Assembly: GCF_900105905.1 (NCBI RefSeq)
Contig: NZ_FNSV01000005.1
Coordinates: 1,178,001 to 1,242,000, forward strand
From: Rhodococcus koreensis
GTDB lineage: Bacteria; Actinomycetota; Actinomycetes; Mycobacteriales; Mycobacteriaceae
Length of the DNA: 64,000 bases
Direction: 5' to 3'
Under the pieces are notes generated by a model. The model had not been told where the DNA came from and did no database searches. It was given only the letters and a program-made list of their open reading frames with translations. The position numbers were made by a program, and so were the translations under genes. Shown here in pieces: positions 3,664 to 30,911 of this stretch; positions within the stretch are counted from its first letter, which is position 1, and the number at the start of each line of letters is the position of its first letter.

Positions 3664-4680
3664 TCAGCTCGCCGCGACCTCGAAACGCGAGAGCGCCAGC
3701 AGGCGCGACGTGGCACGCAGATACTTCTTCCGGTACCCGCCGGCCAGCATCTCGGGGGTGAAGATCGCGTCGAGCTTGGCCCCGGCCACGGTGACCGGGA
3801 TGCTCGCGTCGTAGAGGCGGTCGGCGAGGACCACCAGCCGCAGCGCGACCGACTGGTCCTCGGCGGGGTGGACGCCGTCCAGGAACACGGCCGGAATACC
3901 CGCGACCAGCTTGTTGTAGCGGGACGGGTGCAGCGTGCTGAGGTGCTTGCACAGCGCGTCGAAGTCGTCGAGCGTGGCGCCGGGGATGCTCTCGGCGCGC
4001 TCGGCGAGCTCCTCCGAGGAGATCGGGTCCGGGGCCGGCGGCAGGTCGCGGTGGCGGTAGTCGGGTCCGTCGACGCGGATCGTCTCGAAGATGGAGCCGA
4101 GCTTCTTGATCTCCCGCAGGAAGTCCTGTGCAGCGAATCGGCCCTCACCGAGCTGGCCGGGCAGCGTGTTCGATGTCGCCACGATGGACACGCCGCGAGC
4201 CGACAACTCCGACAGCAGGCGGGAGACCAGCATGGTGTCGCCCGGGTCGTCGAGTTCGAATTCGTCGATGCACAGGACGCTGTGGTCGGACAGCTGCTCG
4301 ACGGCCTTGTTGAAGCCGAGGGCGCCGACGACGTGCGTCAACTCCACGAACGTGCCGAACGCCTTGGGCGACGGGACGCTGTGGAAGATCGAGGCCAGGA
4401 GGTGGGTCTTGCCGACGCCGAAGCCGCCGTCGAGGTAGAGACCGGCACCGGTGGCCGGCGTCTTCTTCCCGAACAGGCCGCGTCGACCGCCGCTGCGGAT
4501 CTTCACGACCTTCTTCGCGAACTCCTCCGCCTTCTGGACCGCGGCGGCCTGGCTGGGTTCTGCGGGATCGGGAATGTACGACGCGAAGCTCACCTCGTCG
4601 AACATGGCCGGGGGCACCATCTGAGCTACCAACTGATCAGCGGGGACCACGGGGCTGCGATCGACAAGACGTGCATGCAT
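3664..4680 (-). CDS. zapE: ZapE/AFG1-type ATPase
   Basis: 338 residues. Walker A GGFGVGKTH and Walker B VLCIDEFELDD are clear, followed by the sensor segment VATSNTLP and a conserved C-terminal FLDGVHP/LVVLADRLYD region, as in the AFG1/ZapE AAA-like ATPases. E. coli ZapE is linked to FtsZ ring constriction; mitochondrial AFG1 to protein quality control. The order zapE-ribD diverging is the same as Rv2670c/Rv2671. ATG at 4680 is supported by a TACCCT -10 on the minus strand whose last base is 6 bases before the ATG, so the mRNA is probably leaderless. Confidence 0.92.
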   Translation of the reverse strand: MHARLVDRSPVVPADQLVAQMVPPAMFDEVSFASYIPDPAEPSQAAAVQKAEEFAKKVVKIRSGGRRGLFGKKTPATGAGLYLDGGFGVGKTHLLASIFHSVPSPKAFGTFVELTHVVGALGFNKAVEQLSDHSVLCIDEFELDDPGDTMLVSRLLSELSARGVSIVATSNTLPGQLGEGRFAAQDFLREIKKLGSIFETIRVDGPDYRHRDLPPAPDPISSEELAERAESIPGATLDDFDALCKHLSTLHPSRYNKLVAGIPAVFLDGVHPAEDQSVALRLVVLADRLYDASIPVTVAGAKLDAIFTPEMLAGGYRKKYLRATSRLLALSRFEVAAS

Positions 4681-4686
4681 ACAAGC

Positions 4687-4692
4687 AGGGTA
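4687..4692 (-). promoter_or_regulatory. -10 element of zapE, leaderless
   Basis: TACCCT on the minus strand, six bases before the ATG at 4680. Transcription starting 7 bases downstream of the element would begin at the A of the start codon. Confidence 0.5.
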
Positions 4693-4702
4693 TCCACGTG
4701 TT

Positions 4703-5503
4703 GTGATCACCAACATGCACCGTGTACATATTGCGACATTTTTCACACCGGACCGCCCGCCCGTCCGGGAGGAGTCCAGCGAATCGGCCGCGAACACGCT
4801 GCGCGAACTGTATGCCTACCCGGCGGAGACCCCTCGACCGTGGATCCGCGTCAACTTCGTGAGCAGCATCGACGGCGCCGTCTCGGTCGACGGGGTCAGC
4901 GGGGCGCTCGGCACCCCCGCGGACGCACTGGTCTTCGCAACCCTGCGGGAGTTGGCCGACGTCGTCCTGGTCGGGGCCGGAACCGTCCGGGCGGAGAACT
5001 ACGGCGGGGCGCGCGTGGGCGCCGAGGGCAGGCGTCGCCGGGTGGCCTCGGGGATGCCGGAGGTCCCGCCGATCGCCGTCCTGTCCGCCCGCGCCCACCT
5101 CGACCCGCAGGCCCGCCTGTTCACGGACACCGAGGTGGCCCCGATCGTCGTCACGTGCGCGGACGCGGACCCGGCGCGGATCCGCGCCCTCACCGACGCG
5201 GGCGCCCGGATCGTCACCGCCGGCGACGGGCAGATCACCAGTGAAGGACTGCTCGCGGCGCTGGACGACCTCGGACTCCGGCGGGTGCTCTGTGAGGGCG
5301 GCCCGAGCCTGTTCGGGCAGCTGATCGCGGACGACGCCGTCGACGAGGTCTGCCTGACTACGGCGCCGGTGCTCGCCGGGGGAACCGCCGGTCGCGTCGC
5401 GACCGCACCGAATGCCCGGATCACCTCGATGACTCCCGCGCACATCCTCACCGACACCGATGGCACCGTCCTCACCCGATGGGTGCGGATGCCCCGCCCG
5501 TAG
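4703..5503 (+). CDS. RibD C-terminal-like pyrimidine/folate reductase
   Basis: 266 residues consisting only of the reductase half of RibD (no zinc deaminase domain). Visible family motifs are NFVSSIDGAVS near residue 50, the NADPH-binding segment DVVLVGAGTVRAENY, and GGPSLFGQLI close to the C terminus. It corresponds by content and position to Rv2671, whose product can replace dihydrofolate reductase and confer p-aminosalicylate resistance when overexpressed; a role in riboflavin synthesis is the alternative. Start GTG at 4703; ATG at 4715 is also possible. It diverges from zapE with a 22-base gap, and its stop precedes the lipoprotein gene by 23 bases. Confidence 0.85.
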   Translation: MITNMHRVHIATFFTPDRPPVREESSESAANTLRELYAYPAETPRPWIRVNFVSSIDGAVSVDGVSGALGTPADALVFATLRELADVVLVGAGTVRAENYGGARVGAEGRRRRVASGMPEVPPIAVLSARAHLDPQARLFTDTEVAPIVVTCADADPARIRALTDAGARIVTAGDGQITSEGLLAALDDLGLRRVLCEGGPSLFGQLIADDAVDEVCLTTAPVLAGGTAGRVATAPNARITSMTPAHILTDTDGTVLTRWVRMPRP

Positions 5504-5526
5504 GGGAACCTGGCAGGGTGGTCGCC

Positions 5527-7083
5527 ATGCGCAGATCGGTGTTGCTCGCAATGGTTCTCGTGGTGTGCACCGCGTGCGGAGCCGGACCGTCCAACCGTCC
5601 GCACGTGGCAGTCGAGCGCGAGGGCGGCGGCAGCGAACCCACCGCGACCGAGAGCGAGAACCCCGACGCTGCCCCGCCCGTGTTGCAGACCCCGAAGAAC
5701 GACGTGGCGTGGACGGACTGCACGCAGAGCACGCTCGGCGCCCTGGGCCCGGGCACGACACCCCCTGCCGGGCTCATCTTCGAATGCGGCTCCTACGAGG
5801 CGGCCGTCGACGAGAGCGGCACCCTGCCCGGGACCTTCACGATGGGCGCGATGCGGGCGCGGCTCGCGGACACCCCCGAGAACGCGGCCCCGCTCGTGCT
5901 CACGTCGGGATCGGACCGGTCGTCGACCGCGACGCTCGCGGCGCTGAGCACCGGTGGTCTGACGTCGCTGCTGTCGACGCGTCCGGTGGTCGCGGTGGAC
6001 CGCCGCGGGATCGCCGCCTCGCAGGAGATCGAGTGCCTCACCCCGGAACTCCGCAGCAGCCTGGCGAATCTCGGGCAGTTCGACCCGGGGACGGGTGACC
6101 AGGTCGACAAGGTGACCGCGCTGGGCCGCGACGCCACCATCGCGTGCACCGACTACCTGCAGCCGCAGGAACTCGCGTTCGACAGCACCCACGCCGCCGA
6201 CGACATCGAGGAACTGCGCCGCACCTGGGACGTCGACGCGCTCGGGATCCTCGCCACCGGCAACGGCAGCGCCGTCGCGCTCAGCTACGCCGCCAAGTAC
6301 CCCGGCCGGGTCGGCCGGCTCGTCCTCGACTCCCCCGCCGTCACCACAGTGGACGCCGCGACCGTCACGGAGCAGCAGGTGGCGGGTCAGGAGGCGGCGT
6401 TCGACGCGTTCGCCCGCCAGTGCACCGCCCTGAACTGCTCTCTCGGCGCCGATCCCCGCGCCGCGGTGACGGACGCCGTCACCCGCGCCGCGAACGGCCA
6501 GATCCCGCGGGTCTCCGCGAACGCCCTCCTCACCGCGGTGTCCGGGTCGCTCGCCGCGGCAGGCGGCGACCAGCAGGGCCGTGTCCGCGCCCTGTCGGAT
6601 GCGGTGTCCGCCGCCCTCGCCGGGAACACGGCGCCGATCCTCGCGGCGATCGCGCAGGCCGAGGCCGCCTACGAGAGCGACGGCCAGTTCATCACCCGCT
6701 GCACGGACGGCCAGCAGTGGCCCGCACCCGACCGGGTCCGGGAACTGCAGAAGCTGTGGGGCGAACGGTTCCCGCTGTTCGGCCCGAACGCCGCCGTCGG
6801 CCTGCTCACGTGCACGTCCTGGCCCGCGACCGCGCCCCCCGCCCTGCCCGGCGAGCTGACACTGCCGGTCCTGGTGCTCAGCGGCACCGCCGACCCGGTC
6901 GTCGGGAACGCCGGGGTGGGGACGGTGACGGGGGCCGTGTCGAGTGCCGGCGCCGCGACGGCGACGCTGACGTGGCACGGCAGCGGCCACCCCGCCACCC
7001 ATTCGGACTGCGCGCAGAAGTCGATCGTCACCTACGTCACGGACGGGAAGCTGCCGCCGGACGGCAGCGCCTGCCCCGCTTAG
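5527..7083 (+). CDS. Secreted/lipoprotein alpha/beta hydrolase, TAP-like
   Basis: 518 residues. An N-terminal hydrophobic segment ending in CTAC (Cys at residue 17) suggests a signal peptide, possibly a lipoprotein. The catalytic domain has a Tyr-rich beta core, RPVVAVDRRGI, the nucleophile elbow GNGSAVAL, and a C-terminal TAP-like domain with LVLSGTADPV and GSGHPATHSDC supplying the acidic residue and histidine. Such proteins are exported tripeptidyl aminopeptidases/proteases of the SCO7095/Rv2672 type. It follows the ribD-like gene as Rv2672 follows Rv2671. ATG at 5527 is used because the in-frame ATG at 5479 lies inside the preceding gene and would hide the signal peptide. Confidence 0.87.
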   Translation: MRRSVLLAMVLVVCTACGAGPSNRPHVAVEREGGGSEPTATESENPDAAPPVLQTPKNDVAWTDCTQSTLGALGPGTTPPAGLIFECGSYEAAVDESGTLPGTFTMGAMRARLADTPENAAPLVLTSGSDRSSTATLAALSTGGLTSLLSTRPVVAVDRRGIAASQEIECLTPELRSSLANLGQFDPGTGDQVDKVTALGRDATIACTDYLQPQELAFDSTHAADDIEELRRTWDVDALGILATGNGSAVALSYAAKYPGRVGRLVLDSPAVTTVDAATVTEQQVAGQEAAFDAFARQCTALNCSLGADPRAAVTDAVTRAANGQIPRVSANALLTAVSGSLAAAGGDQQGRVRALSDAVSAALAGNTAPILAAIAQAEAAYESDGQFITRCTDGQQWPAPDRVRELQKLWGERFPLFGPNAAVGLLTCTSWPATAPPALPGELTLPVLVLSGTADPVVGNAGVGTVTGAVSSAGAATATLTWHGSGHPATHSDCAQKSIVTYVTDGKLPPDGSACPA

Positions 7084-20661: not shown

Positions 20662-22770
20662 ATGACCGACATTGCAACGGCATTCGCCGACGAGGTCGTG
20701 ACCAACGCGTACACCAAGATCGTCGCGGTACCGGGCATCGAGGGCCCGGTCGCGCTGATCACCCTCGACAACGGTTTCGACCACACCAAGCCGTCGTCGT
20801 TCGGGCCGGGTGGCCTGGCGGCCCTCGACGCGGCCCTGGACGAGGCGTTCGCCGCCCACCCCGTCGCGATCGCGATCACCGGCAAACCCTTCATCTTCGC
20901 CGCCGGCGCGGATCTCAAGGGTGTTCCGAGCATCACGAACCGGGACCAGGCGCTCGAACTGGGCCGACTCGGGCACAAGGTGTTCCGCAGGCTGCGCGAA
21001 TCGTCCGTGCCGACATTCGCGTTCGTCAACGGCGTCGCGCTCGGCGGCGGCCTCGAGGTCGCGCTGCACAGCCACTACCGCACCGCCTCCGAGAACGCCG
21101 GCGCGCTGGGTCTGCCCGAGACATTCCTCGGGCTGGTGCCGGGCTGGGGCGGAACGCAGTTGCTGCCCAACCTCATCGGTCCCTCGAACGCGGTCACCGT
21201 CGTCCTCGAGAACGCGCTGAACCAGAACCGGACGCTCACCCCGAAGAAGGCCCTCGAACTCGGCGTCGTCGACGCGGTGTTCGGTTCGGCCGACTTCCTC
21301 GAGCAGTCGTTCGCCTGGGCGGCGCAGGTCCTGGCCGGCGAGATCACCCCCGCGCGTCCCGAGATCGACCGGGGCAAGGGCTGGGACGACGCGATCGCCC
21401 GCGCGAAGGCAATCGTCGAGGGCAAGACCAAGAACAACGCACCCGGACCGGTCAAGGCCGTCGAACTCCTCGAGCTGGCTCGGACCACCGATCTCACCGA
21501 CCCGGCGTCGCTCGACAAGGGCTTCGCCGCCGAGGACGAGGCGCTCGCCGACCTGCTGCTCGCCGACGAACTCCGCGCTGGGCTGTACGCGTTCGACCTG
21601 GTGAACAAGCGGGCCAAGCGGCCCGCGGGCGCACCGGACAAGTCGCTCGCGCGCAAGGTCACCGGTGTCGGCATCGTCGGGGCCGGTCTGATGGCCAGCC
21701 AGCTCGCGATGCTGTTCGTCCGCCAGCTGAAGGTGCCGGTCGTCCTCACCGACATCGACCAGGAGCGCATCGACAAGGGTGTCGGCTACGTCCACGGCGA
21801 GATCGACAAGCTGCAGGGCAAGGGCCGGCTGTCCCCGGACGCCGCCAACCGGCTGAAGGCACTCGTGTCCGGGTCGCTCGACAAGGCGGCGTTCGCGAAC
21901 ACCGACTTCGTGATCGAGGCGGTGTTCGAGAACCTCGACCTGAAGAAGAAGATCTTCGCGGAACTCGAGGAGCACATCGCCCCCGAGACGATCCTCGCCA
22001 CCAACACGTCCTCGCTGCCGATCACCGAGATGGCCGCGGACCTGAAGCACCCCGAGCGGGTGGTGGGCTTCCACTTCTTCAACCCGGTCGCCGTGCTGCC
22101 GCTGCTCGAGGTCATCAAGGGCCAGAAGACCGACGACGCCACCCTGGCAACGGCATTCGCCACCGCCAGGGCGCTGAAGAAGTCGGCCGTCGGCTCCGCC
22201 GACCTGCCCGGGTTCGTCTTCAACCGGCTCCTGATCCGCACCCTCGGTGAGGTCATGAACGCGGTCGACGAGGGAACCCCGTTCGAGGTGGCCGACAACG
22301 CCATCGCCGAACTCGGGATGCCGATGACCCCGTTCACGTTGCTGGCGCTCGTCGGTCCGGCGGTCGCATTGCACACCGGAGAGACCCTCGCCGCGGCGTA
22401 CCCGGAGCGGTTCCACAACTCCCCCGGGCTCGAGGCGCTCGTCGAGGCGAAGAAGCCGGCGGTGTGGAGTTACGGCGCCGACGGCACGCAGGTCGTCGAC
22501 CCCGAGGTCGCGGCGCTGTGGAAGCAGGGCGACACGGCGTCCACGTCCGCGGAGGTCCTCGATCGCACGCGGCGCGCGTTCGCCGAGGAGATCCAGATCA
22601 TGCTCGACGAGGGCGTCGTCGCGGCGGCCGAGGACATCGATCTCTGCCTGATCCTCGGCGGCGGGTTCGGCTTCTGGAACGGCGGCATCACGCCGTACCT
22701 GGACCGCACCGGCACGTCCGAGGCCGTCAACGGCAAGCGGTTCCTGGCGCCGGGCGTCGCGAGCGTCTGA
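20662..22770 (+). CDS. fadB: Multifunctional fatty-acid oxidation protein: enoyl-CoA hydratase / 3-hydroxyacyl-CoA dehydrogenase
   Basis: 702 residues. N-terminal crotonase domain (about 15-190) with the oxyanion segments FIFAAGADLKG and NGVALGGGLE and catalytic glutamates in LPETFLGLVPGWGG. Then a Rossmann NAD domain (about 330-510) starting GVGIVGAGLMAS, with the hydroxyacyl-CoA dehydrogenase signature in RVVGFHFFNPV, and a helical C-terminal domain. This is the FadB/TFP-alpha layout; it hydrates enoyl-CoA and oxidises the 3-hydroxyacyl-CoA for FadA. It directly abuts fadA. Transcription ends at the 20-bp hairpin at 22775-22820. Confidence 0.95.
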   Translation: MTDIATAFADEVVTNAYTKIVAVPGIEGPVALITLDNGFDHTKPSSFGPGGLAALDAALDEAFAAHPVAIAITGKPFIFAAGADLKGVPSITNRDQALELGRLGHKVFRRLRESSVPTFAFVNGVALGGGLEVALHSHYRTASENAGALGLPETFLGLVPGWGGTQLLPNLIGPSNAVTVVLENALNQNRTLTPKKALELGVVDAVFGSADFLEQSFAWAAQVLAGEITPARPEIDRGKGWDDAIARAKAIVEGKTKNNAPGPVKAVELLELARTTDLTDPASLDKGFAAEDEALADLLLADELRAGLYAFDLVNKRAKRPAGAPDKSLARKVTGVGIVGAGLMASQLAMLFVRQLKVPVVLTDIDQERIDKGVGYVHGEIDKLQGKGRLSPDAANRLKALVSGSLDKAAFANTDFVIEAVFENLDLKKKIFAELEEHIAPETILATNTSSLPITEMAADLKHPERVVGFHFFNPVAVLPLLEVIKGQKTDDATLATAFATARALKKSAVGSADLPGFVFNRLLIRTLGEVMNAVDEGTPFEVADNAIAELGMPMTPFTLLALVGPAVALHTGETLAAAYPERFHNSPGLEALVEAKKPAVWSYGADGTQVVDPEVAALWKQGDTASTSAEVLDRTRRAFAEEIQIMLDEGVVAAAEDIDLCLILGGGFGFWNGGITPYLDRTGTSEAVNGKRFLAPGVASV

Positions 22771-22774
22771 CCCC

Positions 22775-22820
22775 CACGTGAGTGGCGATGTGTGCCCCGG
22801 CACACATCGCCACTCACGTG
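22775..22820. terminator. Bidirectional terminator between fadB and the AprA-like operon
   Basis: Perfect 20-bp stem (22775-22794 with 22801-22820) and a six-base loop CCCCGG, lying between two convergent genes that end 5 bases before and 1 base after it. Confidence 0.85.
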
Positions 22821-22821
22821 C

Positions 22822-25521
22822 TCAGGGGACGGGGACGTGGTCTGCGGCGACGAGGGCCTGGCGGGCGTAGGCCCGCACGTCGGCGTCCGTGTCCTCGAGT
22901 GCGGCGGTGAGGGCATCGACTGCGCCGCGGTCGCCGGTCCACCGGCCGAGTGCGAGGACCGCGGCCTTGCGCACGTCGAGGTGCGCGTCCGTCAGGGCGT
23001 CCGCCAGCACGGGCACCGCGACATCGGGTTCCGCACCGGCGAGTGCCCGGGCGGCGCCCTGCCGGATCTGCCAGGCCGACTCCCGCAGCGCCGCTGTCGC
23101 GAGCGCGACGTCGTCACCGCGGCAGCCGAGGCTCGCGAACGCCGTCAGCGCGGCGGCGCGCACCAGCGGATCCCGGTCTCCGGCCAGCGTGCGCACCGTC
23201 TCGGCACCGCCGAGCCCGACGGTGGCCAGGCCGTGTGCGACGGTGATCCGCACTTCGCGGTTCTCGTCGTGTGCCCCCTCGGCCACCGACTCCCACCGGT
23301 CCAGCGACACCAGTGCCCGCACCGCCTCGATCCGGACGTGGTGATCGGCGTCGGACAGCGCGGTCAGGAACTGCTCCGCCGCACCGGCGTGCAGGGCGCG
23401 CAGGACGTCGACCACGGCGGCCCGGACCACGGCGTCGGACGACCCCAGGTGCTCGGCCAGTCCGCCGGCCGACGGCAGCACCTCGACGAGTTCGCGCAGT
23501 CCGTCGGCGGCGGCGCGGCGCACCGTCACCGCGCCGTCGCCGAGCGCGTCGACGAGGGCGGCGCCGAATCCGTCGGGTGTCCCTTCGGTCAGCACGGACA
23601 GTGCCGTGACGCGGACCTGCGGATCGGCGTCCTGCAGGTACGGTGCGAGTTCGGCGACGCTCGGGGCGTCGAGTCCGAGGACCGCGACGATGGCCGGTGA
23701 GGACGGCTCCTGCCGGGTCGGCGCCGCGATGCGGGAGCGTTCCTCCACCGGCGCGCGGCCCCCGACCAGCGGCGGCTGAGCGACGGGGACGACGGTGCGG
23801 TCCACCGGCGGAAGGGAATCGAGTCCGGGCACCGGCACGAAGTACGGTTCGACGGGGCGCTTGAAGAACTCCATGTCGCCGTTCTCGCCGCGCCGCAGAT
23901 TCAGGTGGTAACCCCATTCGTCGTCCCGCTGGTCCGGGAGGTCCGCGCGTTCGTGGTACAGCCCCCACCGGCTCTCGGTCCTGGTGAGGGAACTGCGGGA
24001 CGCCATTTCCGCGCAGTCGCGGATGAACGTGACCTCCGCGCAGCGCATCAGCTCGTGCGGGGTGGTCGCGCCCATCCCGGCGATCTCTCCCGCCATCCGT
24101 TCGAACGTCTCGACGGCGATCGACAACTTCGTCGCCGTCTTCGGCGGTGCCACATAGTCGTTGACGAAGCGGCGCAGCTTGTACTCGACCTGCGGCTGGG
24201 GCGGGCCGTCCGGGTTGCGCAGCGGCCGATAGATCAGCTCGTGCGCGGCGGCCAGTTGTTCCGCGGGCAGCGCGTCCGGCGCGTCGACGTCGGGCAGGGT
24301 GCCGGTGGCGTGGGATCCGGCGAGGTCGCCGTAGACGAACGCGCCGATCATGTAGTTGTGGGGGACGCAGGCCAGGTCGCCGGCGGCGTACAACCCCGGG
24401 ACGGTGGTCGCGCCGTGCTCGTCCACCCACACGCCGGACGCGGAATGCCCGCTGCACAGGCCGATCTCGGAGATGTGCATCTCGATGTCGTGGCTGCGGT
24501 AGTCGTGACCGCGGTTCGCGTGGAACGTGCCGCGGGTGGGGCGTTCGGTGGTGTGCAGGATCGACTCGAGCGTGTCGAGGGTTTCCTCCGGCAGGTGGCT
24601 GACTTTGAGATAGATGGGGCCGCGGGCGGATTCGATCTCGCTCTTGACCTCGCTCATCATCTGCCCGGACCAGTAGTCGGAGTCGACGAACCGCTCCCCC
24701 TCGGCGTTGACCTGGTAGCCGCCGAACGGGTTCGCGACGTACGCGCAGGCCGGGCCGTTGTAGTCCTTGATCAGGGGGTTGATCTGGAAGCATTCGATGC
24801 CGCTGAGTTCGGCGCCCGCGTGGTAGGCCATCGAGTAGCCGTCGCCGGCGTTCGTGGGGTTCTCGTAGGTGCCGTAGAGGTACCCCGACGCCGGTAGCCC
24901 CAGCCGGCCGCACGGGCCGGTCGCGAGGATGACCGCCTTCGCGCCGACAGCGACGAACTCGCCGGTGCGGGTGTTCAGCGCCGCGGCGCCGACGGCGCGG
25001 CCGTTCTCCGTCAGGACCCGGACCGGCATCAGCCGGTTCTCGATGCGGATCTTCTCGCGCATCTTCCGCTGCCGCAGCACCCGGTACAGCGCCTTCTTCA
25101 CGTCCTTGCCCTCGGGCATCGGCAGCACGTACGAACCGGAGCGGTGCACCCGGCGGACCGCGTATTCGCCGTACTCGTCCTTCTCGAACTTGACGCCGTA
25201 CTTCTCGAGGCGCTGCACCATCGCGAAACCGCGGGTCGCCGTCTGGTATACGGTGCGCTGGTTGACGATTCCGTCGTTGGCGCGCGTGATCTCGGCGACG
25301 TAGTCCTCGGGTTCGGCCTTGCCGGGGATGACGGCGTTGTTGACACCGTCCATTCCCATGGCGAGCGCACCGGAATGGCGCACGTGCGCCTTCTCGAGCA
25401 GCAGCACGTTCGCGCCGTTCTCGGCGGCGGTCAGCGCCGCCATCGTGCCTGCCGTGCCGCCGCCGATGACGAGGACGTCGCAGTCGAGGCGGACGGTGTC
25501 GGCGAGGTCGGGGATGTCCAT
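22822..25521 (-). CDS. AprA/fumarate-reductase-type FAD oxidoreductase fused to HEAT repeats
   Basis: 899 residues in two parts. Residues 1-560 form a flavoprotein with the FAD motif VIGGGTAGTMAAL (18-30), HSGALAMGMDGVNNA (49-63), NAGDGYSMAYHAGAEL (224-239) and a terminal YAAGDLACVPHNYMIGA (378-394); these follow adenylylsulfate reductase alpha (AprA) more closely than succinate dehydrogenase. After a proline-rich linker, residues 616-899 are about eight HEAT repeats (recurring DxxVRxxAxxAL). The ATG at 25521 shares its A with the TGA of the ABC ATPase. With the ferredoxin at 28598 it could make an AprAB-like pair. The substrate is unknown; APS reductase itself is unlikely because no sat, dsr or qmo gene is present. 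Confidence 0.8.
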   Translation of the reverse strand: MDIPDLADTVRLDCDVLVIGGGTAGTMAALTAAENGANVLLLEKAHVRHSGALAMGMDGVNNAVIPGKAEPEDYVAEITRANDGIVNQRTVYQTATRGFAMVQRLEKYGVKFEKDEYGEYAVRRVHRSGSYVLPMPEGKDVKKALYRVLRQRKMREKIRIENRLMPVRVLTENGRAVGAAALNTRTGEFVAVGAKAVILATGPCGRLGLPASGYLYGTYENPTNAGDGYSMAYHAGAELSGIECFQINPLIKDYNGPACAYVANPFGGYQVNAEGERFVDSDYWSGQMMSEVKSEIESARGPIYLKVSHLPEETLDTLESILHTTERPTRGTFHANRGHDYRSHDIEMHISEIGLCSGHSASGVWVDEHGATTVPGLYAAGDLACVPHNYMIGAFVYGDLAGSHATGTLPDVDAPDALPAEQLAAAHELIYRPLRNPDGPPQPQVEYKLRRFVNDYVAPPKTATKLSIAVETFERMAGEIAGMGATTPHELMRCAEVTFIRDCAEMASRSSLTRTESRWGLYHERADLPDQRDDEWGYHLNLRRGENGDMEFFKRPVEPYFVPVPGLDSLPPVDRTVVPVAQPPLVGGRAPVEERSRIAAPTRQEPSSPAIVAVLGLDAPSVAELAPYLQDADPQVRVTALSVLTEGTPDGFGAALVDALGDGAVTVRRAAADGLRELVEVLPSAGGLAEHLGSSDAVVRAAVVDVLRALHAGAAEQFLTALSDADHHVRIEAVRALVSLDRWESVAEGAHDENREVRITVAHGLATVGLGGAETVRTLAGDRDPLVRAAALTAFASLGCRGDDVALATAALRESAWQIRQGAARALAGAEPDVAVPVLADALTDAHLDVRKAAVLALGRWTGDRGAVDALTAALEDTDADVRAYARQALVAADHVPVP

Positions 25522-26300
25522 CAGGTCTCCGGAGTGTGGTTCAGCGCGCCGAGAACGTCGGCGCGGGCGGCACGGGTGCCGGGATGGTCGAGGTGGTCGC
25601 GGTCGCGGGGGTGCGGGATGTCGACGAGCGCCCGCAGCGGCTCACCTGCCCGGCCCAGCACCGCCACCCGGTCGCCGAGCAGCACCGCCTCGTCCACGTC
25701 GTGGGTCACGAACACCACCGTCGTCGGGTGCGTGCTCCACGTGTCGACGAGCAGTCGCTGCATGACGCCGCGGGTCTGGGTGTCGAGGGCGCCGAACGGT
25801 TCGTCCATCATCACGGCCCGCGGCGCCCCGGCGAGGCCGCGCGCCAACTGGACCCGCTGGCGCATGCCGCCGGACAGGTTCTTCGGCAGGAAGTCGCCGA
25901 ACCCGGTCAGACCCACCTCGGCGATCCAGCGGTCGGCGGTCTCACGGCGCCCCTTGCGGGGTTCGCCGCGCAGCGCGAGGGCCAGTTCGATGTTCGAGCG
26001 CACGGTGCGCCACGGGAGGAGCGCGTTGTCCTGGAAGACGACCGCCCGGTCCCGGGAGGTCGACTCCACCGCGGCGCCGTCGGCGACGACCCGCCCCGAA
26101 TCGGGCGGCAGCAGCCCCGCCAATGCGCGGAGCACGGTGGACTTGCCGCACCCCGAAGGTCCGGTGAGCACCAGGATCTCGCCGGGCACCACGGTCAGCG
26201 ACAGCGAACGGATGACGGGTTTCCCGGTGTAGGACAGGGTGACGTCATCGAGGACCAGCGACATGCCCGCGGCCACGGACGTTCCGGCGGTGGCGGTCAT
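25521..26300 (-). CDS. ABC importer ATPase, nitrate/sulfonate/taurine (SsuB/TauB) type
   Basis: 259 residues. Walker A GPSGCGKST, Q-loop VFQDNALLPW, signature LSGGMRQR, Walker B AVMMDEPFGALD and the H-loop THDVDEA are complete. QDxALLPW and RxGGMxQR are typical of the SsuB/TauB group. ATG at 26300 overlaps the permease stop (ATGA). It drives import of the solute captured by the lipoprotein encoded at 27151-28581. Confidence 0.9.
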   Translation of the reverse strand: MTATAGTSVAAGMSLVLDDVTLSYTGKPVIRSLSLTVVPGEILVLTGPSGCGKSTVLRALAGLLPPDSGRVVADGAAVESTSRDRAVVFQDNALLPWRTVRSNIELALALRGEPRKGRRETADRWIAEVGLTGFGDFLPKNLSGGMRQRVQLARGLAGAPRAVMMDEPFGALDTQTRGVMQRLLVDTWSTHPTTVVFVTHDVDEAVLLGDRVAVLGRAGEPLRALVDIPHPRDRDHLDHPGTRAARADVLGALNHTPET

Positions 26301-27154
26301 GCGCGCTCCCCTCGTGGCAGCCAGCGGGTGACCCGCCTGCCGAGCAGTTCGACCGCCCCGGACGTGAGAAATCCGAGGATGCCGATCGTGATCATGCCGA
26401 CGAAGACGCCGGGGTAGTCGACGATCGTGTACGCCTGCCAGGTGCGGTACCCGACACCGAGCCTGCCGGAGATCATTTCGGCGGAGATCACACAGATCCA
26501 GGCGACCCCGATCCCGACGGACAGTCCACCGAACACGCCGGGCAGGATCCCGGGCAGCACGACCCTGGCCAGCACGTCCCAGCGTCCGCCGCCGAGGGTG
26601 CGCACCGAGTCCTCCCACAGCGTGGGCAGTGCCCGGACGGCGTGCCGGGTGCTCACCATGATCGGGAAGAATGCGGCGACGAACGTGATGAACACGATGC
26701 CCGCCTCGTCGCTGGGGAACAGCAGGATCGCGACGGGTACGACCGCGATGGCGGGGATCGGCCGGGCGAGTTCGGTCAGCGGGCCGAGGACGTCGGCGAA
26801 CAGTTCCGATCTGCCGAGGGCGATTCCGGTGGCCACCCCGATAACCGTGGCGAGTCCGAATCCGCTGAGAATGCGGATCAGCGACTGTCCGAGGTCGAGG
26901 TAGAACAGATCGGTCTGCAGCTGGGTGCCGAACGCGGACACCACGTCGGTGACGGTGGGGAGCGTGTCGAACCGCAGCCACAACCGGACGTCGTAAGCGG
27001 TGAGCAGCTGCCACGCGAGGATCGCAGCCAGCACCGAGGCGACCCGCACGAGCCGGGACCGCCACGGCGACGATCGTCGGCGGGTCTCCGGATCACGTTC
27101 TTCCACAACGCCTTCGGCGTCGGACAGGACTTCCGGTTGTTCCAGTGTGGTCAC
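26297..27154 (-). CDS. ABC importer permease, SsuC/TauC type
   Basis: 285 residues, about six membrane segments after a 40-residue polar N terminus. The EAA coupling segment is DSVRTLGGGRWDVLARVVLPGILPGV. GTG at 27154 overlaps the stop of the binding-protein gene (GTGA), and its own stop overlaps the ATPase start (ATGA). Confidence 0.88.
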   Translation of the reverse strand: MTTLEQPEVLSDAEGVVEERDPETRRRSSPWRSRLVRVASVLAAILAWQLLTAYDVRLWLRFDTLPTVTDVVSAFGTQLQTDLFYLDLGQSLIRILSGFGLATVIGVATGIALGRSELFADVLGPLTELARPIPAIAVVPVAILLFPSDEAGIVFITFVAAFFPIMVSTRHAVRALPTLWEDSVRTLGGGRWDVLARVVLPGILPGVFGGLSVGIGVAWICVISAEMISGRLGVGYRTWQAYTIVDYPGVFVGMITIGILGFLTSGAVELLGRRVTRWLPRGERA

Positions 27155-28581
27155 GGCCGGACCTCCTCGACGGCGCGGTCGTAGGTGACCACGGCCCCCG
27201 ACGGGTGCGCCCTCAGGTAGCGGTCGGCCGCGGCGCCGGTGGTGAACGGCAGGAAGGTGTCGCCGTCGCGCACCCACACGGCCTTGTCCGCGAACCATCG
27301 GGTGCCCAGTTCGGCGTCGGGAACGTAGCCGGCGCGCACGGTGCGGCCCTCGGCGCGGGCCTGCTTCACCGCCCGGAGCAGGCAGGTCGGGTTCGCGGCC
27401 GGCTGGGTCTCGCCGGTGCCGTCGAACCACACCTCCCCGGCCAATGCCGGGTCGCTCGCGGGCGCGGCGCACACGGGGTCGGTACCGGTGACGGCGGCGG
27501 GGTTGGCGGTGGACGCGAGCGTGGTGTCGTAGTCCTGCCCGTCCGCCGCGAATGCCGACCGCAGCGGTGCGTCGTTCACGAAACCGTCGACGTCGAGGTC
27601 GGCGAAGTCGCCGATCGACTTCAGATACGGCACATCGTTCTTCAGTGCACCGATCAGACCGGGCTTGAGCGTGGTGTCGAACGAGGTGCCGCCCGGGCCG
27701 TTGTACAGGTACACGACCTCCTGCGGCAGCCCGCTGGCGTCGGCGACGATCCGCGACGCCTCGAGGGGTTCAGTCTGCACGAACCGGGTGGCGTCGAGTT
27801 GTGCCCGGAGGAACGCGTCGAGTACCTCGGGGTGCTCGTCCGCGTACGCCTCCCGGGCCACCACACCGTGCAGGGTCGGGGTGTGCAGTTCGGCGCCGTC
27901 GTACAGCAGCTTCGCCTTGCCCTGGAAGACGAGAAGTCCCGGCCACGCGACGAACTGCGACAACGCGGCCACCTGACCGGATTCCAGTGCCGAGGATCCG
28001 ACCTGCGGCTGCTGGTTCAGGACCTCGACGCCGGTGGCCGGGTCGATCCCGGCGCGGTCGAGTGCCTGGACGAGGGTGCCGTGGCCCGCGGAGCCGACGC
28101 TCGCGGACACCTTCTGTCCGGCCAGGTCGCCGAGCGTGGTCGCCGGTGAGTTCGGCGGCACCACCACCATGTTCAGCGCGCCCTCGGGGTTGTACCCGGT
28201 CACCGAGACGATCTCCGTCTTCGAGCGCGGGTTCGCCTGGGTGCGGGAGCCGTTGATCAGCATCGGGTAGTCGCCCATCGATCCGATGTCGATCTTCTCT
28301 GCCACCATCTGGGCGGTGATCGGCGCACCGGTGTCGTAGTCCTGCCATTCGACGGAGTACTTCGTCCCGGTCCGTTCCGTGACGTCCTGCAGACGCTGTT
28401 CGAGGTAGCCCTGCGCCCGCAGCAGGGTTCCGGCGGTGACGGTGTTGATCGTCTTGGACTGGTACCCGATCACCACGGTGACCGCGTCGCCGTTTCCGGC
28501 CGACGGTTCGAGGGAGCAACTCGTCGCCACGAGTGTCAGTGCCGCGGCGGCGATCGCGAAGGTGGGGAAACGTCGCTTCAT
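27151..28581 (-). CDS. ABC solute-binding lipoprotein (SsuA-like) with C-terminal NosL-like domain
   Basis: 476 residues. A signal peptide ends at Cys22 (VATSC), so it is probably a lipoprotein. Residues 33-350 form an SsuA/TauA-like binding protein (VVIGYQSKTINT near the start, IGSMGDYPMLING, SVGSAGHGTL). Residues about 368-474 form an extra domain with Cys371 and Cys400, FADKAVWV and TGAAADRY, which resembles the copper chaperone NosL (pattern WxDAxxAxYV followed by PF/PMG). Ordinary SsuA proteins stop before this domain. The domain may tune ligand or metal capture; this is inference. Seventeen-base gap to the ferredoxin gene upstream. Confidence 0.78.
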   Translation of the reverse strand: MKRRFPTFAIAAAALTLVATSCSLEPSAGNGDAVTVVIGYQSKTINTVTAGTLLRAQGYLEQRLQDVTERTGTKYSVEWQDYDTGAPITAQMVAEKIDIGSMGDYPMLINGSRTQANPRSKTEIVSVTGYNPEGALNMVVVPPNSPATTLGDLAGQKVSASVGSAGHGTLVQALDRAGIDPATGVEVLNQQPQVGSSALESGQVAALSQFVAWPGLLVFQGKAKLLYDGAELHTPTLHGVVAREAYADEHPEVLDAFLRAQLDATRFVQTEPLEASRIVADASGLPQEVVYLYNGPGGTSFDTTLKPGLIGALKNDVPYLKSIGDFADLDVDGFVNDAPLRSAFAADGQDYDTTLASTANPAAVTGTDPVCAAPASDPALAGEVWFDGTGETQPAANPTCLLRAVKQARAEGRTVRAGYVPDAELGTRWFADKAVWVRDGDTFLPFTTGAAADRYLRAHPSGAVVTYDRAVEEVRP

Positions 28582-28597
28582 CTGTGTGGTCTTTCGC

Positions 28598-28825
28598 TCA
28601 GCGGAGGAGGTACGGCATGTTCACGGTGACCGCGCCGGTCGGGCAGCGCGCCGCGCAGGGGCCGCAGTACCAGCATTCGTCGACGTGCATGAACGCCTTG
28701 CCGTTCTCCGGGTTGATGGCGAGGGAATCGAGTGGGCAGATCTCGACGCACAGGGTGCAGCCCTCGATGCACAGCGACTCGTCGATGGTGACGGGTACGT
28801 CGGCGCGTTGGTTGACCAAGGTCAT
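28598..28825 (-). CDS. Two-cluster [4Fe-4S] ferredoxin (AprB-like)
   Basis: 75 residues. CIEGCTLCVEICP and CWYCGPCAARCPTGAV supply eight cysteines for two [4Fe-4S] clusters. The tail is short and lacks the long C-terminal extension of true AprB. It most plausibly hands electrons to the flavoprotein of this operon. Its ATG overlaps the stop of the regulator gene (ATGA), an unusual arrangement in which regulator and electron carrier are translationally coupled. Confidence 0.9.
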   Translation of the reverse strand: MTLVNQRADVPVTIDESLCIEGCTLCVEICPLDSLAINPENGKAFMHVDECWYCGPCAARCPTGAVTVNMPYLLR

Positions 28826-29601
28826 GAGGTGAGCTCCCAGTTCGTGATGTCGGGTCTGCGGACGAGGTTGCTGCGCATGGTGATCCGGTCACCGCGCATG
28901 CGGATGTATTCGAGGTCGACCGGCCGTCCGTCGACGAGCCGGGTGAGGCGCTCGAGCAGCAGGAGCGCCGCGCCCTCGGGGGTCTGGAGGTTCGCGGCGG
29001 AGTGCGCGTCGGCATTGACGGATTCGATCGCCAGATCGGCGGAACCCAGAGGCTGACCGCAGACCTCCTCGATCAGCGCGAACACGTCGTTGGTTTCGAG
29101 GTCGCGGCCGAGGATCTCGGCGCCGATGTCGGGGACGAGGTAGGTGAGGTCCAGGCTGAGCGGGAGGTCTCCGAGGTAGCGCACCCGCTCGATGTACACG
29201 GCGGGTTCGCCCGGCTCCAGCTGCAGCCGGCGGGCGACGGCGGGCGGCGGGCTGATCTCCACGGCGGCGCGGACGTCGTTGCGGACCTCGCCGTGCCCCT
29301 TCAGCGTCTCCTTCAGCCCCAGCAGGGCGTCGAGGCCGTGGTCGTACTTGCGCTGCGCCACGTGGGTTCCCACGCGGGGGGCGCGGTCGATGAGCCCCTC
29401 CTGCTTCAGCAGCGCCAGTCCGTCGCGCACCGCGTTGCGCGACACGCCGAACTCGGCGGCCAACTCCGATTCCGACGGCAATCCGCGCTCGGCGAAGGAC
29501 TCCGCGTGGATCTGCTGCCGCAGCAGGTCGGCGAATCTGCGCGCATGGTCCGCACGGGAACTGCGTGACGCCGTCGGGAGGGGAGTCGGATTCACCACCA
29601 T
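28822..29601 (-). CDS. GntR/HutC-family transcription regulator with UTRA domain
   Basis: 259 residues. A winged-helix domain is at about residues 20-85 (LPSESELAAEFGVSRNAVRDGLALLKQEGLI, the usual GntR helix-turn-helix). The C-terminal 165 residues form a UTRA ligand-sensing domain. It heads the six-gene operon and probably controls it in response to the transported compound. ATG at 29601 has GAAGGA upstream at the right distance; the ATG at 29802 would overlap the region upstream of the operon. An inverted repeat GCGTGT-N15-ACACGC (29620-29646) lies 19 bases upstream and is a weak operator candidate. Confidence 0.87.
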   Translation of the reverse strand: MVVNPTPLPTASRSSRADHARRFADLLRQQIHAESFAERGLPSESELAAEFGVSRNAVRDGLALLKQEGLIDRAPRVGTHVAQRKYDHGLDALLGLKETLKGHGEVRNDVRAAVEISPPPAVARRLQLEPGEPAVYIERVRYLGDLPLSLDLTYLVPDIGAEILGRDLETNDVFALIEEVCGQPLGSADLAIESVNADAHSAANLQTPEGAALLLLERLTRLVDGRPVDLEYIRMRGDRITMRSNLVRRPDITNWELTS

Positions 29602-29848
29602 GGTTCCTTCGTCGATTGTGCGTGTGAGCTGGACGAAGACACACGCTAACGGCAGTCCGCGGGGCCCGGAGTCGCGGCGAACACGCCCCCCGGACGCCTC
29701 GGTGAATCGGCCGGGTCCGCGCCGGCGGCGACTCGTCTCACCAGCGCGAACACGGCAGTGCCCGGGTAATGCGCCAGGCGGCGGCGGGCCCGGGAATTCC
29801 AATCACGGTGATTCGAAGTGGCGGCGTCCGCCGAACGAGCGCGCAACT

Positions 29849-29867
29849 CTAGGTTAGGCTTACCTTC
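29849..29867 (+). promoter_or_regulatory. IdeR/DtxR iron box
   Basis: Fifteen of 19 positions match the IdeR consensus TTAGGTTAGGCTAACCTAA, including the whole core AGGTTAGGCT. It lies 27 bases before the GTG at 29895, where the iron-loaded repressor would block transcription. Confidence 0.8.
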
Positions 29868-29894
29868 CATATTTGTCCCGAAGGAGTCGTTGCC

Positions 29895-30911
29895 GTGTTC
29901 GCACCCACCGCCAGGCGTCAGCTCGCCGTCGCACTCGCCGTGGCCAGTTCGTCCCTCTTCCTCGCCGCCTGCTCGTCCGGCGACGGCGGCGGCAGCACCG
30001 AGGCGTCCGGTGAGGGATTCCCGGTCACCATCGCGAACACGTTCGGATCGACCACGCTCGACGCGGCACCCGAACGCATCGTCACCCTCGGATGGAACGC
30101 CCAGGACGTCGTCTACGCCCTCGGCCAGACACCGGTCGGCATGCCGAAATACACGTACGGCGCCGAGGCGAACGGCGTGATGCCCTGGCTGCAGGACCGT
30201 TTCGACCCGTCCGCGACCACGCTGCTCGACGCGGCCACGTCCACCCCCATCGAGGGCGTCGCCGCGCTGGCGCCCGATGTGGTCCTCGCGCCGTACGAGG
30301 GATTCGACGAGGCGACGTACGAGAAACTGTCGGGAATCGCCCCCACCGTGGCGTACCCGGACAAGGCGTGGCAGACCACGTGGCAGGACCAGACCGCACT
30401 GGTCGGTCAGGCACTCGGCAAGAGTGCCGAGGCCGAGCAGCTGGTCGCCGGTCTCGACGACACCCTCGCCCAGACCGCCGCCGCGCATCCCGAGTTCGCA
30501 GGCAAGACGATCTCGGTCGTCAACTTCGACACCGACGCCGCGACCGTCAACGTCTACATGCCCTCCGATCCCCGCGTCCAGGTGCTGACCGAGCTCGGCT
30601 TCACCGTGTCGCCCGGCGTGCAGAAGCTGGCCGCGGCGAACGATCCTGACAAGTTCTTCGCCGACATCTCCGTGGAGAACATCTCCGACGTGGACGCCGA
30701 CGTCGTGGTCGCGTTCGTCCCGGAGAACACCACCGTCGCCGCGAACCCGGCCTACGCGAATCTCGGTGCCATCGGGCGCGGAACCGCGGTCGCGCTGTCG
30801 GACACGAAGATCATCTCGGGGCTCAGCCAGACCAGCGTTCTCGCGACACCGTGGGTTCTGGACAAGCTGACACCTCAGCTGAGCGAGGCCGCGAAGAAAG
30901 CGGGTGCCTGA
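29895..30911 (+). CDS. Ferric-siderophore ABC transporter binding lipoprotein
   Basis: 338 residues of the FecB/FepB-like class III binding proteins. Lipobox LFLAAC with the lipid-bearing Cys26, a low-complexity linker, then PERIVTLGWNAQDVVYALG, the usual entry to the fold, and an internal helix-backed two-lobe layout. It captures a ferric siderophore outside the membrane. GTG at 29895 has GAAGGAG 9 bases upstream. The IdeR box makes it iron-repressed. No permease or ATPase is nearby, so it must share a transporter encoded elsewhere. Confidence 0.9.
   Translation: MFAPTARRQLAVALAVASSSLFLAACSSGDGGGSTEASGEGFPVTIANTFGSTTLDAAPERIVTLGWNAQDVVYALGQTPVGMPKYTYGAEANGVMPWLQDRFDPSATTLLDAATSTPIEGVAALAPDVVLAPYEGFDEATYEKLSGIAPTVAYPDKAWQTTWQDQTALVGQALGKSAEAEQLVAGLDDTLAQTAAAHPEFAGKTISVVNFDTDAATVNVYMPSDPRVQVLTELGFTVSPGVQKLAAANDPDKFFADISVENISDVDADVVVAFVPENTTVAANPAYANLGAIGRGTAVALSDTKIISGLSQTSVLATPWVLDKLTPQLSEAAKKAGA

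Follow-up and report, generated by a model that had tools for sequence, protein, structure and literature searches.

The window analysed here is a stretch of 64,000 nucleotides from Rhodococcus koreensis, whose source genome is 10.3 Mb. On its minus strand, at 22822..29601, it contains six genes that form a widely conserved and as yet uncharacterised operon. The genes encode a transcriptional regulator, a ferredoxin, the three parts of an ATP-binding cassette (ABC) importer, and a flavin adenine dinucleotide (FAD) flavoprotein. The flavoprotein is related to the alpha subunit of 3'-phosphoadenosine 5'-phosphosulfate (PAPS) reductase (PAPSR) and to AprA of the adenosine 5'-phosphosulfate (APS) reductase AprBA. 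In the direction of transcription the genes are:

28822..29601, minus strand: GntR/UTRA (HutC/PhnF-like) transcriptional regulator (PF07702 1.3e-31, PF00392 3.5e-14)
28598..28825, minus strand: dicluster [4Fe-4S] ferredoxin of 75 aa, putative AprB-like electron donor (Pfam Fer4 dicluster)
27151..28581, minus strand: substrate-binding protein of the TauA/SsuA class (Pfam NMT1) with a NosL-like C-terminal domain at about residues 370-476
26297..27154, minus strand: ABC importer permease (BPD_transp_1 PF00528 1.4e-20), GTG start
25521..26300, minus strand: ABC importer ATPase (ABC_tran PF00005 1.6e-30)
22822..25521, minus strand: AprA/PAPSR-type FAD flavoprotein (about residues 1-565) fused to a HEAT-repeat domain (about residues 620-892) (Pfam FAD_binding_2, Succ_DH_flav_C and HEAT_2)

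The genes are tightly packed. The stop and start codons overlap as ATGA between the GntR and ferredoxin genes, as GTGA between the binding protein and permease genes, as ATGA between the permease and ATPase genes and as TGATG between the ATPase and flavoprotein genes. A preliminary description of this DNA had listed the same six leftward genes and these junctions; its one gap, between the ferredoxin and binding protein genes, is 16 free bases (28582-28597) and not 17.

Conservation and distribution of the operon

The best 80 actinobacterial matches to the window flavoprotein, among which the top named ones are Rhodococcus wratislaviensis and R. opacus, were compared as loci. In 74 of the 80 the full set of eight query pieces taken from the six genes is present in the same order and on the same strand, with the GntR/UTRA gene at the head of the operon. 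The grouping is therefore more than chance, and the earlier proposal of a single operon holds. Among the remaining loci, L021, L052, L054 and L055 begin near a contig start, L006 is without the GntR gene and has its top ferredoxin match at the far locus edge, and L061 (17-3044 of a 4.3-kb contig) has a ferredoxin match directly before the flavoprotein and no importer match. The permease and ATPase genes of L010 are separated by 1520 bases, the next largest such gap in the 74 full loci being 114. The flavoprotein is present in 8/296 and 12/396 genomes of two samples of Actinomycetota, and in all 12 flavoprotein-bearing genomes of the second sample the binding protein gene lies no more than about 3 kb away on the same contig. 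The preliminary description had offered to abandon its proposal if the genes did not co-occur in other genomes; they do. A single inner stop was flagged in the copies of G182, G193 and G023; by tblastn each retains the flavoprotein and HEAT parts, and in one of these copies (L116) the frame is open across both.

Outside the Actinomycetota, 16 loci of Proteobacteria and Cyanobacteria were taken from a plasmid collection (L082-L087 and L120-L129; L127 and L129 are unannotated there). The flavoprotein, the ferredoxin and a HEAT protein occur together in all 16, with the HEAT protein encoded by a separate gene. A full-length binding protein, permease and ATPase accompany them in 12/16 (not in L082, L087, L128 and L129), and a related GntR gene in 6/16. 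A LysR-type gene adjoins the flavoprotein gene in the cyanobacterial loci L120 and L121 and is a few genes away in L124. Nine of the 16 loci encode a DUF971/GBBH-like protein and three others an Mrp/NBP35-type Fe-S carrier. Both kinds of module are combined in plant HCF101, so these proteins may serve cluster loading.

The flavoprotein and its ferredoxin

Over its whole length (residues 1-892) the window flavoprotein exceeds the cut-off of the NCBIfam equivalog NF010374 (PRK13800), with 1799.2 bits against 1196. It also exceeds that of NF006131 (PRK08275), with 865 bits. The fusion of flavoprotein and HEAT domain reported in the preliminary description is thus real but not unique, since NF010374 already covers it. 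Both models give family names only, and the NCBI name is 'fumarate reductase/succinate dehydrogenase flavoprotein subunit'. Models for SdhA, FrdA and NadB remain far under their cut-offs, and two AprA models are also below theirs (TIGR02061, 127.6 against 641.75; NF005331, 266.6 against 557). The best solved relatives are PAPSR alpha of M. thermolithotrophicus (8a8o, 1.5e-56) and then AprA (1jnr, 3e-29).

In a careful tree of 26 rows, 18 of them from the flavoprotein family, the family groups with AprA and the archaeal PAPS reductase with support of 95/95 and three AsfA candidates stand apart; AprA is present in it only as two aligned stretches, and branches are long. A quick tree with 28 family rows gives the same grouping with support of 96. 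BLAST scores of the flavoprotein are 53-81 bits to the three AsfA candidates and 191-207 bits to PAPSR alpha.

The active site was compared in an alignment of 106 flavoprotein rows, which include near-identical relatives and the host copy and so are not independent, using residue roles as described for AprA (PMC2211403). The sulfate-contacting Asn74 of AprA is Asn61 in 106/106 rows, and PAPSR also keeps the Asn. His359, likewise in 106/106, pairs with PAPSR His346 and is taken as the equivalent of AprA His398, a position that the aligned AprA stretch did not reach. The other two members of the AprBA active-site set are replaced in every row. Trp234 has become Tyr219 and Arg265, which is called invariant in APS reductases, has become Leu250, whereas PAPSR keeps both the Trp and the Arg. 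The adenosine monophosphate (AMP) pocket is replaced as well. Uniform changes at further AprA positions are Tyr95 to Glu77, Trp144 to Tyr131, Gly274 to Cys259 and Lys281 to Gly267, each in 106/106. Because Arg265 and the AMP pocket are lost, the flavoprotein is probably not an APS reductase.

The ferredoxin has all eight Cys in 26/26 rows, made up of 25 family members and an AsfB candidate. Its Trp52, in the motif DECWYC, is present in the 25 family rows and absent from the AsfB candidate. By position arithmetic only, this residue falls at or beside the electron-relay Trp-B48 of AprB. Profile matches include AprB (3gyx_B, 1.8e-8; 1jnr_B, 2.7e-6) and PAPSR beta (8a8o_C, 7e-8), with polyferredoxins scoring better. 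The description of the pair as an AprA-like flavoprotein with a two-cluster ferredoxin is therefore borne out. Like AprBA and PAPSR, the operon combines an FAD flavoprotein of the same clade with a partner carrying two [4Fe-4S] clusters. It differs from them in the length of the ferredoxin (75 aa, against 150-166 aa for AprB chains and 104 aa for PAPSR beta), in the replaced Arg265 and AMP-pocket residues, in the HEAT domain and in the linked importer. As the preliminary description had said, there is no sign of sulfate respiration; a dsrA model has four matches in the host, none over its cut-off, and sat, qmo and other dsr genes were not searched for.

The importer and its binding protein

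A profile of 33 binding proteins of the family has as its best matches in the PDB E. coli TauA (6.7e-27) and SsuA (1.6e-23), which agrees with the SsuABC-like importer proposed earlier. The window protein matches the SsuA_fam model TIGR01728 at 6.2e-36 and does not reach the NCBIfam SsuA and TauA cut-offs. By sequence it is thus a member of the TauA/SsuA sulfonate class, an assignment that does not fix the specific ligand. The best NCBIfam matches of the permease (nitrate, SaoP and TauC permeases), the ATPase (taurine ATPase) and the regulator (HutC/PhnF) are also under cut-off. The N-terminus of the binding protein is lipobox-like as judged by eye.

In TauA the sulfonate is contacted by Gln30, Gly61, Gly79 and Thr132 and the amine by Glu106, Thr132 and Asp205 (PMC6906117). 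The sulfonate-contacting Gln and Gly of the SsuA/TauA family are present here. Gly61 is Gly85 in 33/33 binding proteins, and Gln30, which lies outside the aligned part of TauA, is paired through the IGYQ motif of SsuA with Gln41, also in 33/33. Ser164 is fixed in all 33 rows, residue 103 is Gly in 24 and Ala in 9, and residue 165 is Ala in 25 and Thr in 8. The amine ligand Asp205, in contrast, corresponds to His238 in 33/33. Glu106 was aligned to Asn137 by HMMER and not by MAFFT, and no claim is drawn from it. A ligand with a sulfo group and without the amine of taurine would be the simplest reading of these residues.

The C-terminal tail, which sets this binding protein apart from those of Tau/Ssu importers, had been called a NosL-like fusion. 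The resemblance is remote. PF05573 (NosL) is matched at E<=1 by 15 of the 33 family members (best 1.2e-6), the window's own tail (about residues 370-476) has no match to it, and a profile built from the tails of the family recovers a single CxxCGM-type NosL (L132, 4e-6) among 58 open reading frames. The CxxCGM motif, which has a copper role in NosL, is present in L132 and L133 and absent from the tail.

Is the importer tied to the flavoprotein? A search of the 396 actinobacterial genomes gave 17 binding protein matches, five of them without a flavoprotein match in the surrounding stretch, and the partners of the importer change among these. In L168, L170 and L171 a GntR/UTRA gene, a sulfatase-type gene with a CTPTR motif and a SulP transporter gene are near the importer. 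The motif was checked in all three and the Pfam sulfatase match in L168 and L171; by eye, none of the three sulfatase-type proteins has a signal sequence. L168 additionally carries an FGE gene. A DUF202 gene and a gyrB-type gene (4394-6316) intervene between its sulfatase-type gene and its importer, which makes this a neighbourhood rather than a demonstrated operon. The importer of L135 has a luciferase-like monooxygenase and TauE nearby. Near the operon itself, in the 80 actinobacterial loci, SulP was seen in none and a sulfatase in two (E about 1e-9). Two of the genomes, G335 and G050, also have the flavoprotein operon elsewhere. Residue 167 is His in 33/33 flavoprotein-linked binding proteins and Asp in the four aligned importers without the flavoprotein (the L135 protein is not in the alignment).

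Relationship to asfRABC

A search of open-licence PubMed Central (PMC) articles found no description of the operon or of the flavoprotein family and no characterised function; the texts available contain one mention of PRK13800, where it labels a domain of a fungal phosphatase subunit. The earlier statement that no characterised pathway has this set of parts stands to that extent, with the qualification that an NCBIfam equivalog exists and that a related system, asfRABC, has been described. In Pseudomonas putida S-313 the use of aryl-sulfonates depends on asfRABC, which comprises a binding protein, a reductase and a ferredoxin (PMC4267179). It shares with the operon a flavoprotein reductase, a dicluster ferredoxin and a sulfonate-type binding protein, and it differs in having a LysR rather than a GntR/UTRA regulator. 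The available description, used here in place of the S-313 sequence, mentions no HEAT or NosL-like part.

Locus L093 of C. metallidurans has an FAD_binding_2 protein with an adjacent dicluster ferredoxin, and from fold, pairing and rough place it is probably the AsfAB of PMC2864759. The host itself has two AsfAB-like pairs (L106 and L110, at 7.61 and 7.64 Mb), whose flavoproteins and that of L093 are 53-57% identical. With the AsfA candidates in a separate clade of the best tree and the AsfB candidate without the CWxC of the operon ferredoxin, asfRABC is the nearest described system and looks distinct from the operon.

Regions flanking the operon

Three candidate elements lie upstream of the GntR gene:

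29643..29649, minus strand: TTAGCGT, possible -10 box that lies 41 bases ahead of the start codon of the GntR gene (read by eye)
29767..29775, minus strand: GGCGCATTA, at -174, a degenerate version (1 mismatch) of the GGCGCAATA element that is linked to the operon
29801..29813, no strand assigned: AATCACGGTGATT, inverted repeat, operator candidate (read by eye)

The same or near forms of TTAGCGT precede the GntR gene in aligned Mycobacteriaceae loci, as judged by eye. Of 74 sequences ahead of the GntR gene, 50 contain the element GGCGCAAT (the window included; one is reverse-oriented), against 21 of 4025 background tiles. The element is paired in 28 of the 74, with starts allowed to be 51 to 56 bases apart and the cases read being 53 or 54. 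In 10 genomes picked for having the pair it occurs once each, at the operon, and the backwards pattern occurs 0 times. The window keeps only the GGCGCATTA copy and not the intact pair. In L020, L030, L041, L017 and others the tandem GGCGCAAT elements precede the GntR gene by about 60-180 bases, and GGTTT-NN-GCTGGTC-like boxes are found about midway between them. A core like AATCACGGTGATT, namely AATCACCGTGAT, is present upstream in Gordonia L070. No HutC-type GT-N-TA-N-AC operator was seen in the 17 of 74 upstream regions examined. The GntR/UTRA protein is a probable local ligand-sensing repressor, judging by its family and place. Farther upstream, TAGGTTAGGCTTACCTT at 29850-29868 resembles an IdeR/DtxR iron box; it precedes the gene 29895-30911, which is divergent from the operon and by eye encodes a siderophore-type binding protein-like product.

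Directly past the flavoprotein stop, and ahead of the convergent gene 20662-22770, is an inverted repeat whose 22-base arms match perfectly across a loop of 2 bases (22775-22820). A 19-base piece of one arm has 19 genome matches at <=2 mismatches, two of them being these arms, and its reversed control has 0. The hairpin thus looks like one of a dispersed family of REP-like hairpins or terminators. An Rfam scan of seven loci gave no element at the gathering threshold; a sub-threshold mir-610 match in the window overlaps this hairpin.

A possible route for sulfite release

What might such a set of genes do? We give about an even chance to a sulfur-scavenging operon, in which a compound of the form R-SO3 is imported and sulfite is released from it by the AprBA-like pair. 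The import is the firmer half. The TauA/SsuA-type importer would take up an organic oxyanion with a terminal sulfo group (R-SO3-), which could be a sulfonate or an ester of the sulfate, sulfamate or thiosulfate type. In the cytoplasm the flavoprotein and ferredoxin would act as an alpha-beta pair. The sulfo group would be placed at the flavin N5 by Asn61 and His359 as in APS reductase, with a leaving group other than AMP, and two electrons from the ferredoxin would release sulfite. For PAPSR an attack of N5 on the sulfur with release of sulfite has been proposed (PMC10322725). The sulfite would be assimilated or, in some lineages, exported, the GntR/UTRA protein would sense the imported compound or its product, and the HEAT domain would be a docking or assembly module. 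We infer the reductive release from the fold, the two kept residues and the neighbours, and any role of the NosL-like domain would be on a similar footing. That an AprBA-fold enzyme in aerobes releases sulfite reductively and independently of O2 from imported organosulfur, with a dedicated dicluster ferredoxin as donor, is a possibility that we hold only tentatively. The preliminary description had suggested import of a small anion and a redox step on sulfur or another small molecule; import is retained, and the evidence now points to sulfur as R-SO3 rather than to small anions at large. The route draws on the sulfonate-class profile and contact residues of the binding protein, on the changing partners of the importer, on the grouping of the flavoprotein with AprA and PAPSR and its kept Asn and His, and on the ferredoxin matches to AprB and PAPSR beta. 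TauE, in the 9-10 kb flanks of 4 of the 16 loci outside the Actinomycetota and close in three, and a YeiH-type exporter in two of the 16 also speak for it.

Several observations weigh against this route. With the AMP pocket replaced and Arg265 and Trp234 gone, the chemistry could differ from that of APS reductase. The mechanism would work poorly with carbon as the leaving group and fits an S-, N- or O-sulfo substrate better. The importer is absent or poorly matched in 4/16 loci outside the Actinomycetota. TauE-type sulfite exporters are near only 4 of these 16, and in Acinetobacter about 6.6 kb and several other genes separate TauE from the flavoprotein. The 80 actinobacterial loci have no TauE, and YeiH relatives are found in two of them. 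The importer of L169 has a melibiase-like neighbour and no sulfur gene among the genes scanned. A tree that joins the family with AsfA falls 7.0 log units short of the best tree and is not rejected (p 0.088). Sulfonate-type and sulfate transporters in the available text of three sulfur-limitation studies (PMC8557817, PMC7661421 and PMC11852219) could not be matched to the operon.

That last tree, the like parts list of asfRABC and the FAD_binding_2 and ferredoxin pairs in C. metallidurans and, twice, in the host leave room for an Asf-like role, in which the flavoprotein and ferredoxin would do no more than supply electrons to an SsuD-type oxygenase encoded elsewhere, and this oxygenase would cleave the C-S bond of an aryl- or alkylsulfonate. 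We think this not very likely, given the separate clade in the best tree, the far higher BLAST scores to PAPSR alpha, the AsfB candidate without the CW motif and the two AsfAB-like pairs that the host already has. A luciferase-like monooxygenase occurs in the flanks of L084, L085 and L123, from which its model was built, and of only 6/80 actinobacterial loci, so it is no regular neighbour of the operon, although a distant gene could still serve. The FAD_binding_2 and Succ_DH_flav_C folds and the NCBI name would suit a dehydrogenase or reductase of the succinate/fumarate type, working by hydride transfer on the carbon skeleton of a sulfonate after its import, with sulfite lost later. This is unlikely, since the family lies away from the SdhA-, FrdA- and NadB-like proteins of the host in the tree, the corresponding models score far under cut-off, and the partner is a short AprB-like ferredoxin rather than an SdhB-type subunit.

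A pathway outside sulfur metabolism, with nitrate, a thiamin precursor, a nitrogen heterocycle or another anion as the imported compound, seems improbable to us. It would account for the NMT1/THI5 and nitrate-type family matches, for the thiC-thiO-thiS-thiazole synthase genes upstream in Rhizobium L086 and for L169, whose only named neighbour is glycoside-hydrolase-like. The best solved relatives of the binding protein, however, bind taurine and sulfonates, three importer relatives are linked to sulfatases and one to TauE, and the operon has no thi genes nearby in L123 and L128, the annotated rhizobial loci (L122 ends 1.9 kb upstream). A true APS or PAPS reductase of sulfate assimilation is hardly credible, in spite of the grouping with AprA and PAPSR; the active-site replacements, the AprA model scores and the pairing with a sulfonate-type importer all speak against it.

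Organic compounds account for about 95% of the sulfur in soil, and release of sulfur from sulfonates has been described as a process of bacterial monooxygenases (PMC4267179). If sulfite release by the AprBA-like pair is correct, it would be a third way, besides oxygenases and sulfatases, to unload the same family of importers, in Actinomycetota, Pseudomonadota and Cyanobacteriota. As a conserved module of aerobes, a sulfonate-class importer coupled to a flavoenzyme resembling APS reductase would add an as yet unassigned branch to sulfur assimilation, for which sulfonate-type pollutants may be among the substrates. It would also supply a role for the protein family that now carries the name of fumarate reductase.

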